Assembly: GCA_022819985.1 (NCBI GenBank) | Contig: JAJEGH010000004.1 | Location: 124,001 to 188,000 of the forward strand | Source: Alphaproteobacteria bacterium | GTDB lineage: Bacteria > Pseudomonadota > Alphaproteobacteria > Bin65 | Direction of reading: 5' to 3' | Length of the DNA: 64,000 nucleotides | Shown here: positions 32,462 through 37,889 of the stretch, piece after piece | How positions within the stretch are numbered: position 1 is the first letter of the stretch | Layout of the letters: every line of letters begins with the position of its first letter | Program-made: the position numbers and the translations under genes | The notes under the pieces: generated by a model | Told to the model about the DNA's origin: nothing | What the model saw: only the letters and a program-made list of their open reading frames with translations | Databases searched by the model: none

Positions 32462-32700
32462 GGCCGGGCCGGCATCGCGCCGGTCGGGTATTCGCGAGGC
32501 ATGCGCCGCACCATGTGCCACAATGCCGATCCGCCGCAAGGGCGGGAGCGGCCTTCGCGGCCCGTCCTTGGCTTCCGCAGCCCATCGGGTAATCTTGCGG
32601 CGCCCTGGGGACCTCGATTACGGGGGCCGGTCCCGCGGTCCGGTCCCGTATCCCGGTCCGGGGGCGGGAGCCGATGTGCAACCGGGGGAGCAGCCAAGCG

Positions 32701-33141
32701 ATGACCAGCCAGCTTGCCTGGGGGACGGTTCTGATCGTGCTGTCCATCGCCATTCAGGCGACCCTGATGGCCGTGGCCGTCCGGACGATCCGGCGCCGCG
32801 CAGCCTGGCTCAGCCGGCCGCCGCACTTTCCCAAGCTGGCGGGCGCTTTCTGCGGCGTCTCGCTCTGGATGCTTGCGGGCCTGAGCGCGAGCGTCTGGAT
32901 CTGGGCGGTCTTTCTCAATTGGACCGGCGCGCTGGCCGACCTCGAACTGTCGCTCTATTTCTCGCTCGTTTCGTTCACCACGCTGGGCTTCGGCGACATC
33001 CTGCTGGAAAAGCCCTACCGGCTGCTGTCGGGCATGATGGCCGCCGACGGGCTGATCCTGTTCGGCCTGACCACGGCCTTCCTGATCGAGTTCATCCGCA
33101 GCCTGCACGTCGCCCAGGGCGAAGCGGACGACGGGGATTGA
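32701..33141 (+). CDS. Two-transmembrane potassium channel-like protein (Ion_trans_2)
   Basis: A 146-residue small ion channel. A first membrane segment (GTVLIVLSIAIQATLMAVAV), a second (AFCGVSLWMLAGLSASVWIW), a pore helix with selectivity filter SFTTLGFGDILLEKPYRL, and a final helix (ADGLILFGLTTAFLIEFI) match the bacterial 2TM K+ channel layout with one extra segment. The filter is GFGD instead of the commoner GYGD, a known K+-permissive variant. No cytoplasmic RCK domain is attached. The ATG at 32701 is used; a TTG- or ATG-started longer form from 32674 is possible. Confidence 0.85.
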   Translation: MTSQLAWGTVLIVLSIAIQATLMAVAVRTIRRRAAWLSRPPHFPKLAGAFCGVSLWMLAGLSASVWIWAVFLNWTGALADLELSLYFSLVSFTTLGFGDILLEKPYRLLSGMMAADGLILFGLTTAFLIEFIRSLHVAQGEADDGD

Positions 33142-33382: not shown

Positions 33383-35545
33383 ATGAAAATCGCGGTCGTT
33401 TACAACCGAAGCAGCAAGAACGTGATCAACCTGTTCGGCATGCCGAACCGGGAGCGCATCGGCCTCAAAACGATCCACCGGCTGGTCGACGCCCTGAAGA
33501 AGGGCGGGCATCAGGTCATCTCGCTGGAAGCGGACAAGGATATCGTCGAACGGCTCGGGGATTTCATGCCCCAGGTTGTGCAGGGCGAGCGGCCGGGCAT
33601 GGTGTTCAACGTGTCCTACGGCCTTCAGGGCCAGGCCCGCTACACCCATGTTCCCAGCATCCTGGAAATGGTCGGCATTCCCTATGTCGGGTCCGGACCG
33701 CTCGGCCATTCGCTCGCGCTCGACAAAGTCGTGACCAAGATGCTGCTCCGCCAGCGCGGCATCCCGACTCCCGATTTCGCCGTGCTCGACACGCCGGACG
33801 CCGAACTGCCGCCGGACCTGACCTACCCGATGATCGTAAAGCCCAAGAACGAGGCCGTTTCGTTCGGCCTGAAAGTCGTCGACGAAGAAAGCAGCCTGCG
33901 CGAAGCCGCCAAGGTCATTTACGACGAGTTTCGCCAGCCCGTGCTTGCCGAACAGTATATCACCGGGCGGGAGATCAATGTCGGCGTCCTGGGCAACGAT
34001 CCGGTCGAGGCGTTCCAGCCCGTCCTGCTCGATTTCGGCGAAGGCCAGCAGATCTACACCTACGAGGACAAGACCGGGCGCAGCGGCCGCGAAATCCGCC
34101 CGGTCTGCCCGGCGCCGATCGGCGAGGAACTGACGGAGAAGGCCAGGGACATCGCGATCCAGACCTTCAAGGTGCTGGGACTGAACGATTGCTCGAGGAT
34201 CGATATGCGGCTCGACGACGCCGGGCAGCTTTACGTTCTCGAAGCAAATTCGCTGCCGAGCCTGGGCGAGCACGGCTCCTATCTGGTCGGCGCGGCCCAT
34301 GCCGGCCTCGACTTTGCCGGGTTCGTCAACCGGCTGGTCGATGTCGCGACCGCCCGCTATTTCGGCGTGCCCGACGTGTCGCCGCTGGAGGCGGGGCCAA
34401 AAGATTCCGCCAGCCAAATCCTGCTCTACATCACGCAAAACCGGGAACGGATCGAGCGGCGGCTGCGCGACTGGGTGCAGTTGTCGAGCAGTTCCAACGA
34501 TCCGGTCGGGATCGAACAGGCAGTCGGCAAGGCGGGCCGCATGCTCGAAGGTCTGGGGCTGAAACCGGTAAAGGAACTGACCGACGGCCCCGAAGTCTGG
34601 ACCTGGCAGACTTCGGCCGGGCTCGATGGCGGCACCCTGCTGATCGCAAATCTGGATACGCCGGTCGACACCAGGGTCGCCCTGCAGCCTTACCGGCGCG
34701 ATCCGGAATGGGTCTATGGCGAAGGCGTCGGCACGTCGCGGGCGCCGCTGGTCATTCTGGAATTCGCGCTTCGGGCGCTGCGCCGCATACGCAGGCTCGG
34801 CCGGACGCCGCTGGGCGTTCTCCTCTATACCGACGAAGGGCGGAGCGCGTTGCACAGCGCCGAACTGATCCGCGAGGCGACGGCGCGGACGAAGCGCACG
34901 ATCGTCCTCAGCCCGGTTGAGGCGGCCGGCGATTTCGTGACCAACCGGCGCGGCTCGCGGCGCTATCGCCTCACCGTGGAAGGCGAAGCGATCCGTCCGG
35001 GCAAGCGGACCAGGCGGGTTCCCGTCCTGCGCTGGGCCTGGAGCAGGCTCGGCGAGATGACCGAAATGACGTCGTCGAAGGCGCGGCTCGCGGTCGAGGT
35101 GCTGGACATCGAATCGGAGCGCAATCCGATGATGACGCCGCATCGGATCTCCGCCGAGATTGCCGTCGCCTATTTCAACGTCGAGGATGCCGAACGGGTC
35201 GAGCGGAAGATGCGGGAAATCCTCGGCAGGCGCGGACGGCGCTGGAAGCTGACCCTGCTCTCGGACCGGCCGCCGATGAAGGAGCGCGCCCAGGGCCTGC
35301 GCCTGGCGAGAGCCTTCGAAGAAGTCGCCCGGACGCTCGAACTGCCCGCAGGGCGCCATTCGTCGGCATGGCCTTCGGTTGCCGGCCTGGTTCCCGCCAG
35401 GGTCGCCTGCATCTGCGGCCTCGGCCCGGTCTGCCGCGACCGCGGTACTTCCAGGGAGGCGGTCCAGCGGGTCAGCCTGGTGCAAAGGTCGCTATTGCTG
35501 GCGACCTTCCTGAGCAGGCCGAGCGGGACGAAGAAACCGCAATGA
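33383..35545 (+). CDS. ATP-grasp (D-Ala-D-Ala ligase-like) protein fused to a degenerate M20-peptidase-like domain
   Basis: A 720-residue two-part cytoplasmic protein. Residues 1-340 are an ATP-grasp ligase of the D-Ala-D-Ala ligase type: IVKPKNEAVSFGLKVVDEES (ATP-binding lysine), LAEQYITGREINVGVLGND, and the Mg2+ site CSRIDMRLDDAGQLYVLEAN near residue 275. It should join a carboxylate to an amine through an acyl-phosphate. Residues 370-710 follow the M20 carboxypeptidase layout: TLLIANLDTPVDTR, VYGEGVGTSRAPLVILEFAL, GVLLYTDEGRSALHS and a final ICGLGPVCRDRGTS. The usual zinc ligands are replaced, so it is probably catalytically dead. The ATG at 33383 is preceded by overlap with a small frame. 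Its stop overlaps the next gene (ATGA). Substrates are unknown. Confidence 0.82.
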   Translation: MKIAVVYNRSSKNVINLFGMPNRERIGLKTIHRLVDALKKGGHQVISLEADKDIVERLGDFMPQVVQGERPGMVFNVSYGLQGQARYTHVPSILEMVGIPYVGSGPLGHSLALDKVVTKMLLRQRGIPTPDFAVLDTPDAELPPDLTYPMIVKPKNEAVSFGLKVVDEESSLREAAKVIYDEFRQPVLAEQYITGREINVGVLGNDPVEAFQPVLLDFGEGQQIYTYEDKTGRSGREIRPVCPAPIGEELTEKARDIAIQTFKVLGLNDCSRIDMRLDDAGQLYVLEANSLPSLGEHGSYLVGAAHAGLDFAGFVNRLVDVATARYFGVPDVSPLEAGPKDSASQILLYITQNRERIERRLRDWVQLSSSSNDPVGIEQAVGKAGRMLEGLGLKPVKELTDGPEVWTWQTSAGLDGGTLLIANLDTPVDTRVALQPYRRDPEWVYGEGVGTSRAPLVILEFALRALRRIRRLGRTPLGVLLYTDEGRSALHSAELIREATARTKRTIVLSPVEAAGDFVTNRRGSRRYRLTVEGEAIRPGKRTRRVPVLRWAWSRLGEMTEMTSSKARLAVEVLDIESERNPMMTPHRISAEIAVAYFNVEDAERVERKMREILGRRGRRWKLTLLSDRPPMKERAQGLRLARAFEEVARTLELPAGRHSSAWPSVAGLVPARVACICGLGPVCRDRGTSREAVQRVSLVQRSLLLATFLSRPSGTKKPQ

Positions 35546-37191
35546 ACGAAAGCCGCGAAAGCCGCAGCGACACCCGTCCGGCCCGACGCGGCAGGAGCGG
35601 CGCCGGCCGGCGGGCGCAGGCCGAAAAGACCGTCGAGCCGCAGCGGATCGCCGTGTCCGGCAAAGGCATGGTGTCGACCCAGCATCGCTGCGCCACCCGC
35701 GCCGGAGTCCGGATGCTCGAAGAGGGCGGCAACGCCGTCGACGCCGCTGTTGCCGCCGCGCTTGCCCTGGGGGTCTGCGAGCCTGCGGCTTCGGGAATCG
35801 GCGGCCAGACCATGATGCTCGTCCATCTGGCCGAGCCCAAGCGCACCTTCGCCCTGGACGGCTCGTCCCGGGCGCCGTACCGGGCGGTTTCCGAGGTGTT
35901 TTCCGACCGCCGGAGCGAGGTCCGGCGGGGTTATCGCGCCGCGACGGTGCCGAGTGCGCTGGCGACCTACCATTATGTGCTCACCAGCTACGGCCGGCTC
36001 GGATGGTCGAAGGTTTTCGAACCGGCCATCGAACTGGCGCGGGACGGCTACCCGGTCAGCGCGCTGCAATACACGCTGACGCAGCGCGAACGCCGGCATC
36101 TCCTGGAGGGTACGGCAGCGCCGTTTTTTCTCGACGAAGGCAGGGCGATCCGGCCGGGGCGGATGTTCCGGCAGCCGACGCTGGCGGCCACCTTCGAACG
36201 CATCGCCCGGCAGGGAATGGAAGAGTTCTATCTGGGCGAAACGGCCGAGTTGATCCACCGGGACATGGAGGAGAATGACGGCCTGATCCGCAAGGACGAC
36301 CTTGCCCAGATTCCCCACCCCATCGAGCGGCGTCCGCTGACCGGCCGGTTCGATTCCAACCGGGTATTCACCATGCCGCCGCCGGGCGCGGGGCGAACGC
36401 TGGTCGAAATGCTGAACGTATACCAGAACCTGTCCGGACGCGCCGCCGATCCGGATACGCCGCTCGGCGCGGTGTTCCTGGCGGAGACGATCCGCCGGGC
36501 CACCCTCGACCGGCAGGACCGGCCCTACGACCCGAACTTCTATTCGCAGGTGTCGAGCCGCGAAATGGTCCGCACCGAATACGCCAAGCGCGTTGCGAGG
36601 CAGATCGGCAGGCGGATACAGAGCCGGGGCGAGACCACGCACCTGACGGTCATGGACGAGGCCGGAAACGTCGTCGCGCTCACCCAGTCGATCGAGAATG
36701 TCTACGGCTCGTGCTGCGCCACGCCCGGCCTCGGCTTCCTCTACAACAACTACATGAACGCCTTCGAATACAGCGATCCCTCGCATCCCTACTACATGCG
36801 GCCGAACGCGGTTCCCTGGGCCAGCGTGGCGCCGACGGTGATCTTTCGCGGCAGAAGGCCCTGGATCGCGATCGGGTCGCCGGGCAGCGAGCGCATCGCG
36901 CCGTCGATCCTCCAGGTCCTGCTCCGGTTGCGGCATTCCTCGCCCTTCGCCGCCGTCGAGGCGCCGCGCCTCCATTGTTCGCTCGACGGCAAGGTTTCGC
37001 TCGAGGCGTCCAGGATTCGCGACGACGTTCCGGCCAGGCTCGCAAAGCACGGATTCGAGGTCGTCCGCCGGGAAGCCTTCAGCTTCTACATGGGATGCGT
37101 CCAGATGGTGGTTCGCGACCACAAATCCGGCCGAATGACCGGCGTCGCCGATCCGCGGCGCGACGGCGCCGCCGCCGGGCCGGCGCGGTGA
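35542..37191 (+). CDS. Gamma-glutamyltranspeptidase-family protein without signal peptide
   Basis: A 549-residue Ntn-hydrolase. The GGT pattern is clear: GMVSTQHRCATRAGVRMLEE, GGNAVDAAVAAALALGVCEP, GIGGQTMMLVH, the autoprocessing threonine in GETTHLTVMDEAGNVVALTQ near residue 365, GTG-like GLGFLYNNYMNAFE, and GSPGSERIAPSILQVLL. The N-terminus is arginine-rich (RSDTRPARRGRSGAGRR) and has no signal sequence, so unlike most bacterial GGTs it should act in the cytoplasm. Overlaps of 4 bp at both ends (ATGA with the ligase, GTGA with the amidohydrolase) tie it tightly to its neighbours. Confidence 0.88.
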   Translation: MNESRESRSDTRPARRGRSGAGRRAQAEKTVEPQRIAVSGKGMVSTQHRCATRAGVRMLEEGGNAVDAAVAAALALGVCEPAASGIGGQTMMLVHLAEPKRTFALDGSSRAPYRAVSEVFSDRRSEVRRGYRAATVPSALATYHYVLTSYGRLGWSKVFEPAIELARDGYPVSALQYTLTQRERRHLLEGTAAPFFLDEGRAIRPGRMFRQPTLAATFERIARQGMEEFYLGETAELIHRDMEENDGLIRKDDLAQIPHPIERRPLTGRFDSNRVFTMPPPGAGRTLVEMLNVYQNLSGRAADPDTPLGAVFLAETIRRATLDRQDRPYDPNFYSQVSSREMVRTEYAKRVARQIGRRIQSRGETTHLTVMDEAGNVVALTQSIENVYGSCCATPGLGFLYNNYMNAFEYSDPSHPYYMRPNAVPWASVAPTVIFRGRRPWIAIGSPGSERIAPSILQVLLRLRHSSPFAAVEAPRLHCSLDGKVSLEASRIRDDVPARLAKHGFEVVRREAFSFYMGCVQMVVRDHKSGRMTGVADPRRDGAAAGPAR

Positions 37192-37889
37192 AACTGCCGT
37201 TCCTGCTGTCGGTCCCCCATGCCGGGCTGACCGTGCCGCCGGAGGCGGCGCCCTACTGCGCGCTCACGCCGCGCGAGATCGCAGAGGACGGCGACGAAGG
37301 GGCGGCGGCGATCTATCTCGGTCTGGAGCCGCTGGTTGCAGCCTTTCACACGACGGACATCGCCCGCGCCATCGTCGACATGAACCGGGCCGGGGACGAC
37401 CGGAGGCGCGACGGCGTCGTCAAAACCCACACCTGCTGGAACGTTCCGGTCTACCGCGAGCCGCTGCCCGACAGCGTTGCCGAAGGGCTGATCGGCCGCT
37501 ATCACCGGCCCTATCACCGCCGCCTGAGCGAACTGGCGGCCGAACGGCCCGTCCGCCTCGCCATCGACTGCCACACGATGGCCGCACAGGGCCCGCCCGT
37601 CGGCCCCGACGCGGGCTGCGAACGGCCGTGGATATGCCTGGGATACGGCGACGGGACCTGCCCGGACGCGTGGATCGAGGCGCTGAAAGAGCTGTTCGAG
37701 CGCCGGATCGGTGCGCAGGTCACGATTAACGAACCCTTCGGCGGCGGCTACATCACCCGGATGCATTCGGCTGAAATGCCGTGGCTCCAGCTGGAAATGT
37801 CGCGGGCGCCCTTTCTTTCCGACGCCGAAAAGTCCGGCCTTGTCCGGGACGCGCTGAGCGAGCTGGCGGGGTGCATCGGGGCGGCGTGA
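37188..37889 (+). CDS. N-formylglutamate amidohydrolase-family protein
   Basis: A 233-residue zinc hydrolase of the HutG/FGase family. Typical features are LLSVPHAGLTVPPEAAPY at the start, DMNRAGDDRRRDG near residue 64, RYHRPYHRRLSEL, AIDCHTMAAQGP, and GGYITRMHSAEMPWLQLEMS with ligands near the end. The GTG start at 37188 overlaps the GGT-like stop. There are no hut genes nearby, so a histidine-degradation role is unlikely; its partners suggest cleavage or editing of a small gamma-linked or N-acylated amino-acid conjugate. That function is inference. Confidence 0.85.
   Translation: MKLPFLLSVPHAGLTVPPEAAPYCALTPREIAEDGDEGAAAIYLGLEPLVAAFHTTDIARAIVDMNRAGDDRRRDGVVKTHTCWNVPVYREPLPDSVAEGLIGRYHRPYHRRLSELAAERPVRLAIDCHTMAAQGPPVGPDAGCERPWICLGYGDGTCPDAWIEALKELFERRIGAQVTINEPFGGGYITRMHSAEMPWLQLEMSRAPFLSDAEKSGLVRDALSELAGCIGAA

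Follow-up and report, generated by a model that had tools for sequence, protein, structure and literature searches.

Results

A three-gene locus joined by overlapping start and stop codons

Three genes lie head to tail on the + strand of the 64,000-nucleotide stretch of DNA analysed here (the window). Gene A (33383-35545; 720 aa) encodes a Ddl-like ATP-grasp ligase (residues 1 to ~330; 33383-34387) fused to an M20-fold domain (residues ~340-717; 34388-35542) that is predicted to be metal-free. Gene B (35542-37191; 549 aa) encodes a GGT-family Ntn-hydrolase that lacks a signal peptide and has Thr365 as its nucleophile, and gene C (37188-37889; 233 aa), which starts at GTG, encodes an FGase-family hydrolase. 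All three reading frames are open over the spans that an earlier, sequence-only reading of this DNA had described, and the 4-bp + strand overlaps that it had reported, ATGA between A and B (35542-35545) and GTGA between B and C (37188-37191), were found again at exactly those positions. Conservation rules out A, B and C as chance long ORFs, and the C-terminus of gene A aligns with homologues, which excludes a frameshift there. Just upstream of gene A, on the same strand and outside the conserved core, is a gene for a small ion-channel protein (32674-33141; Ion_trans_2, 35.5 bits), a possible functional neighbour of the trio. As had been noted before, there are no hut, glutathione or peptidoglycan genes that account for the three.

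Distribution and co-evolution of the trio

Genome contigs were scanned with gene A alone, and B and C were then sought at the resulting loci. The scan found 18 loci, and B and C, which had played no part in finding them, adjoin A in nearly all of those with sufficient sequence. The carriers are recorded as Alphaproteobacteria, Acidobacteriota, Acidimicrobiia, Ectothiorhodospiraceae, a Nealsonbacteria bin and Phycisphaerales; at least five taxonomic groups (Alpha- and Gammaproteobacteria, Acidobacteriota, Acidimicrobiia and Planctomycetota) have the trio. Several carriers are presumably sponge-derived bins, judging by the bin names. The sequence-only reading had made its proposal depend on whether the three families keep company elsewhere, and they do so across phyla.

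Gene calling showed the order A-B-C to be nearly universal, with overlaps or short gaps at most loci. Order is kept, with 1-bp overlaps, even in a distant copy from the Acidobacteriota (49, 25, 43 and 40% identity). The exceptions are L034, which reads A-C-B'-B with a second GGT gene, and L032, which has no gene C, so that C may be dispensable. Furthermore, with the outgroup excluded, the protein distances of the three genes are correlated (A-B, r=0.96; A-C, 0.81; B-C, 0.81), a result reached in 0 of 2000 permutations.

The trio is rare, occurring in 1 of 289 genomes of Alphaproteobacteria, 8 of 246 of planctomycetes, 1 of 247 of Acidimicrobiia and 2 of 297 of Acidobacteriota. None of the ten further genomes searched in the taxonomic family of the window has a member of the gene B family, and genomes of the same genus gave no full-length match to gene A. 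In the ligase tree the window clade is sister to Acidimicrobiia, within a mostly acidobacterial group. Because the trio is rare, it probably moves horizontally as a unit, and horizontal transfer is the simplest reading of its distribution. PLSDB holds no plasmid with the whole trio; there only the ATP-grasp half was found, in rhizobia. The flanking genes differ between phyla and no block is common across them. An all-against-all comparison of ORFs of at least 90 aa gave, among the matches listed, no fourth gene conserved across phyla except scattered channel and Mg-transporter genes, and the conserved core contains no solute transporter or regulator. On one Phycisphaerales chromosome (G303:C1), pieces of gene A lie near 551, 774 and 1006 kb (L046-L048), and B and C accompany one of these pieces; the scatter is probably an assembly error.

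The ATP-grasp half of gene A is related to Ddl but is not a Ddl

Gene A matches Dala_Dala_lig_C in Pfam (E 5.8e-35). Residues K115, K153, K230, R272, D274, E287, N289 and E24 are conserved in its ATP-grasp half, and those that bind ATP and Mg (K115, K153, K230, D274, E287 and N289) are invariant among the trio homologues, as expected of the ATP-grasp superfamily. The trio proteins retain the equivalents of E15 (E24 here) and R255 of E. coli DdlB and have other residues in place of S150 and Y216. In E. coli DdlB, S281 and L282 hold the second D-alanine; in the alignment of trio homologues these acceptor-pocket positions have become G298 and S299. The AlphaFold model of gene A is poor in this half, with pLDDT below 50 in several stretches, residues 1-111 and 201-240 included, and statements about its residues therefore rest on alignments.

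Gene A also scores below both NCBIfam cut-offs for Ddl (PRK01372, 173.8 vs 243; TIGR01205, 157.7 vs 245.65), and its ATP-grasp half is just under the Pfam cut-off for RimK (20.2 vs 21). A separate Ddl is encoded in the same genome (L089) and clusters with other alphaproteobacterial Ddls in the tree. Long branches set the trio ligases apart from these Ddls, the genome's own included, as a group whose fork has support (94/98) slightly below the star threshold. We therefore rejected the identification of gene A as Ddl, on the grounds of the genome's own Ddl, the altered pocket, the tree and the sub-cut-off scores. The earlier description of a D-Ala-D-Ala ligase-type ATP-grasp enzyme holds for the fold and the ATP/Mg residues and fails for Ddl identity. 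The tree additionally contains a long-branch clade of its own made up of adjacent pairs of Ddl-like ATP-grasp genes from Alphaproteobacteria (L010, L013 and L014; G054:C49, G014:C14 and G060:C53).

The second half of gene A has an M20 fold with a degenerate metal site

The M20_dimer match in gene A is weak (18.7 bits, under the Pfam cut-off). A profile built from 12 gene A second halves matches carboxypeptidase G2, an M20 enzyme, with E 1.4e-21, and the predicted structure superposes on it (1cg2) with Z 31.0 over 351 residues. Taken together, the homologue profile and the predicted structure make a firm case for the M20 assignment.

Alignment to carboxypeptidase G2 showed that four of the five metal ligands have been lost in the gene A family, the first, His423, being retained in relatives of the window protein. 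The bridging Asp has become T, S, R or E; one metal Glu is Gly486 in nearly all homologues and the next is R, S, T or K; the last His, which lies beyond the carboxypeptidase G2 profile alignment and was placed by eye, is mostly lost. The catalytic base, Glu485, is retained. With four of the five ligands gone, this half is probably a pseudo-peptidase and not a metallopeptidase. It thus resembles carboxypeptidase G2 in fold and catalytic-base Glu and differs in its metal site and in its fusion to a ligase. Of the previously proposed fusion of an ATP-grasp enzyme and an M20-like domain, the M20 fold stands and an active M20 peptidase does not. In the window itself, residue 423 (34649-34651) is Asn where every aligned homologue has the first metal His.

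Gene B retains the GGT nucleophile and has lost glutamate recognition

Gene B belongs to the GGT family (G_glu_transpept, PF01019; E 1.6e-118, 397 bits) and scores below the NCBIfam equivalog cut-off for GGT (TIGR00066, 347.7 vs 357.85). Its T365, invariant among trio homologues, aligns with T391 of E. coli GGT, and the two proteins share the sequence context of the self-cleavage site as well as the Thr nucleophile. In E. coli GGT the amino and carboxylate groups of the glutamyl moiety are bound by R114, Q430, D433, S462 and G484. All five positions are replaced in every trio homologue: R114 by S or G (position 108), Q430 by Y404, D433 by A407, S462 by A, T or G (427) and G484 by S449, the window protein having Ser, Tyr, Ala, Ala and Ser, respectively. 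Neither gene B of the window nor the homologues whose N-terminus is complete show a signal-peptide-like hydrophobic start, a further difference from gamma-glutamyltranspeptidase and one that bears out the earlier call of a GGT-family enzyme without a signal peptide. Because the residues that would hold the glutamyl amino and carboxylate groups are replaced, the gamma-glutamyl chemistry previously attributed to gene B is unsupported; judging by these substitutions, the acyl group that it is expected to hydrolyse or transfer is not the classical gamma-glutamyl.

Two loci carry variants of this gene. The cassette at L034 has an extra GGT paralogue (L034:10863-12494; 43%), the more divergent of the two, inserted beside the FGase gene, and at L036:10159-11874, in an Acidimicrobiia MAG, the GGT frame is broken in two and is intact in close relatives, reflecting either a pseudogene or a sequencing error.

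Gene C is an FGase-family hydrolase distinct from HutG

The FGase assignment of gene C was confirmed (PF05013; E 1.3e-40; 140.3 vs a Pfam cut-off of 28.9), and all of the catalytic residues checked are present, the polar residues invariant among trio homologues being H11, D34, D36, H81, H110, H129 and E203. Identification as the N-formylglutamate deformylase HutG was rejected, as the score falls far under the NCBIfam equivalog cut-off (59.6 vs 278.75).

Channel and ion-transport genes recur beside the cassette

MscS- or MscK-type channels are encoded next to the cassette at L025, L028, L029, L034 (with a homologue in L033), L065 and L068. Other neighbours include the Mg transporters MgtE (L029, L034), CNNM (L034, L068) and CorA (L030, from Acidimicrobiia), a Na/Ca exchanger (L068), a dicarboxylate symporter (L034) and SulP (L032 and, by homology, L038). 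Some of these form same-strand runs with the trio: MscK, the Na/Ca exchanger and CNNM precede A-B-C at L068, MscK and two porin-like genes precede A-B-C at L065, and MgtE precedes A-B at L029. No ion-transport neighbours were seen at L035, L039, L045, L066, L067 and L069.

In 5 of 14 carrier genomes a mechanosensitive (MscS-type) channel gene is found no more than 5 kb from the trio, where 0.12 would be expected from a background of ~66 mechanosensitive channel genes in 75 Mb (the 14 carrier genomes counted whole). The resulting P value (~2e-7) covers mechanosensitive channels alone; the enrichment had been spotted prior to testing, and P survives a thousand-fold correction. Neither the family of the ion-transport neighbours nor the side on which they lie is constant. 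The adjoining channels are of at least three different types, on varying sides of the cassette, a pattern that speaks for recruitment on several occasions and against shared descent. The proximity of channels suggests a small-molecule pathway tied to salt or osmotic stress.

Relatives of the ligase and known systems

Symbiotic plasmids of rhizobia carry the ATP-grasp half with no M20 domain attached, at 42-46% identity. In one tight cluster, on a Bradyrhizobium plasmid (L062:5282-10047), a lysine 2,3-aminomutase gene precedes a GGT gene, which overlaps a 7TM_transglut gene, which in turn overlaps the ATP-grasp gene. This cluster resembles the trio in its ligase (46% identity), its GGT (38%) and its overlapping genes; unlike the trio, it encodes an aminomutase and a membrane protein, and lacks the M20 domain and the FGase. 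Its product may be a beta-amino-acid conjugate. At two other loci (L061, L063) panD is near the same ATP-grasp gene. In a planctomycete (L070:7677-9968), a trio-type ATP-grasp domain is fused to 7TM_transglut. Near the distant trio copy at L045, and divergent from it, are genes for a C39-like peptidase, an RLAN-RimK ATP-grasp protein and GCS2 (L045:3010-6499).

Amidoligase cassettes with hydrolases are a known class. The Rlo operon of Pseudomonas, which comprises an inactive-transglutaminase-7TM protein, an ATP-grasp protein and a retropepsin, matters for hypoosmotic survival (PMC12239564). It shares with the trio the pairing of ATP-grasp and hydrolase and a link to osmotic stress (PMC12239564), and the rhizobial and planctomycete relatives of the trio ligase are likewise paired with 7TM_transglut. 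The trio itself, however, has no 7TM protein, its protease is of another kind and no retropepsin was found in the scanned neighbours; since RloC belongs to a different ATP-grasp family, the connection is one of architectural analogy and not of ligase homology. The operon for N-acetylglutaminylglutamine amide (NAGGN), a dipeptide osmolyte, consists of AsnO, Ngg and a peptidase (PMC8070244), and is similar in having three genes that combine amide-forming enzymes with a peptidase (PMC8070244). The domains of the trio are solely ATP-grasp/M20, GGT and FGase; asparagine synthase, GNAT and that type of aminopeptidase are all missing from it, and its hydrolases differ. Our literature search found no paper that names the three families together, nor was the trio combination, the pseudo-M20 fusion or the channel association found in the literature searched.

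Discussion

The sequence-only reading had called the operon one of unknown purpose. Because mechanosensitive and ion-transport genes recur beside it, that purpose is no longer wholly open. Our leading reading, held at somewhat less than even confidence, is that the trio is a self-contained, horizontally transferred gene set for assembling and trimming, in the cytoplasm, a small amide metabolite that serves osmotic or ionic balance. Conservation of the catalytic residues argues for ligase chemistry together with hydrolytic activity; the direction of the reactions, the substrates and the osmotic role are what we infer. The ATP-grasp half of gene A would activate a carboxylate with ATP and join it to an amine, while the M20-fold half, its metal site lost, would probably bind substrate or product or serve in dimerisation. 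Gene B would first cleave itself at Thr365; B and C would act on acyl or amide groups by hydrolysis or exchange, trimming an intermediate or recycling the product. That product would be a small amide, dipeptide-like or an N-acyl amino acid, and could help to keep osmotic or ionic conditions in balance, for instance by acting as a compatible solute, as the recurrent channel and transporter neighbours hint. The build-and-trim cytoplasmic pathway proposed earlier survives in this form, in keeping with the conserved unit, the lack of a signal peptide on B and the ligase and hydrolase residues, without its gamma-linked part.

Glutamylation is used as a removable handle in the degradation of putrescine and isopropylamine, and the presence of a ligase and two amide hydrolases in one operon would suit a conjugative catabolism in which A fixes an amino-acid handle to an amine or amino acid and, once processing is done, B and C take the handle off again. 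A LarA-like gene upstream in L038 and L032, and hydantoinase-like genes further out (seen by eye), point the same way. However, no oxidoreductase or importer is conserved with the trio and gene B lacks the glutamyl-recognition residues, and we regard this reading as unlikely.

It is rather improbable that A extends the tail of a peptide or protein with amino acids that B and C trim, as in RimK/RimB or Rlo. The association of ATP-grasp relatives with 7TM_transglut (L062, L070), the divergent RLAN-RimK, GCS2 and C39-peptidase cassette at L045 and the precedent of Rlo in Pseudomonas speak for such tagging, but the ATP-grasp half is Ddl-like and below the RimK cut-off (20.2 vs 21), and neither a conserved extra ORF of at least 90 aa nor a retropepsin was found among the trio neighbours scanned. 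Homology to Ddl would also allow a side pathway of the cell wall, with a Ddl paralogue making or recycling modified wall peptides that B and C trim. This is decidedly doubtful, given that the genome's separate Ddl groups with alphaproteobacterial Ddls and the trio ligases sit on a long branch, the S281 and L282 pocket residues are replaced, wall genes are not adjacent and gene B has no signal peptide. That the genes are chance neighbours with no joint function is conceivable in that each family is common by itself, but it is contradicted by the trio, its order, its overlaps and its correlated distances across phyla, and we give it almost no credence.

Returning to the osmotic cassette, we would put forward, as a possibility held more loosely than the cassette itself, that the trio encodes an undescribed biosynthesis of a new compatible solute or ion-stress metabolite, passed horizontally and built from a Ddl-derived ligase with a pseudo-M20 domain and a glutamate-blind GGT-fold acylase. 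Unusual small molecules are known to come from cassettes of ligases and hydrolases, and osmolytes with assigned pathways are few. The trio is compact, crosses phyla and is tied to mechanosensitive channels, and can thus be tested by expression of three genes. Repurposing is repeated within it: the ligase has acquired a new acceptor pocket, the peptidase fold has lost its metal site and the GGT fold is blind to glutamate, and annotation pipelines would mislabel all three.
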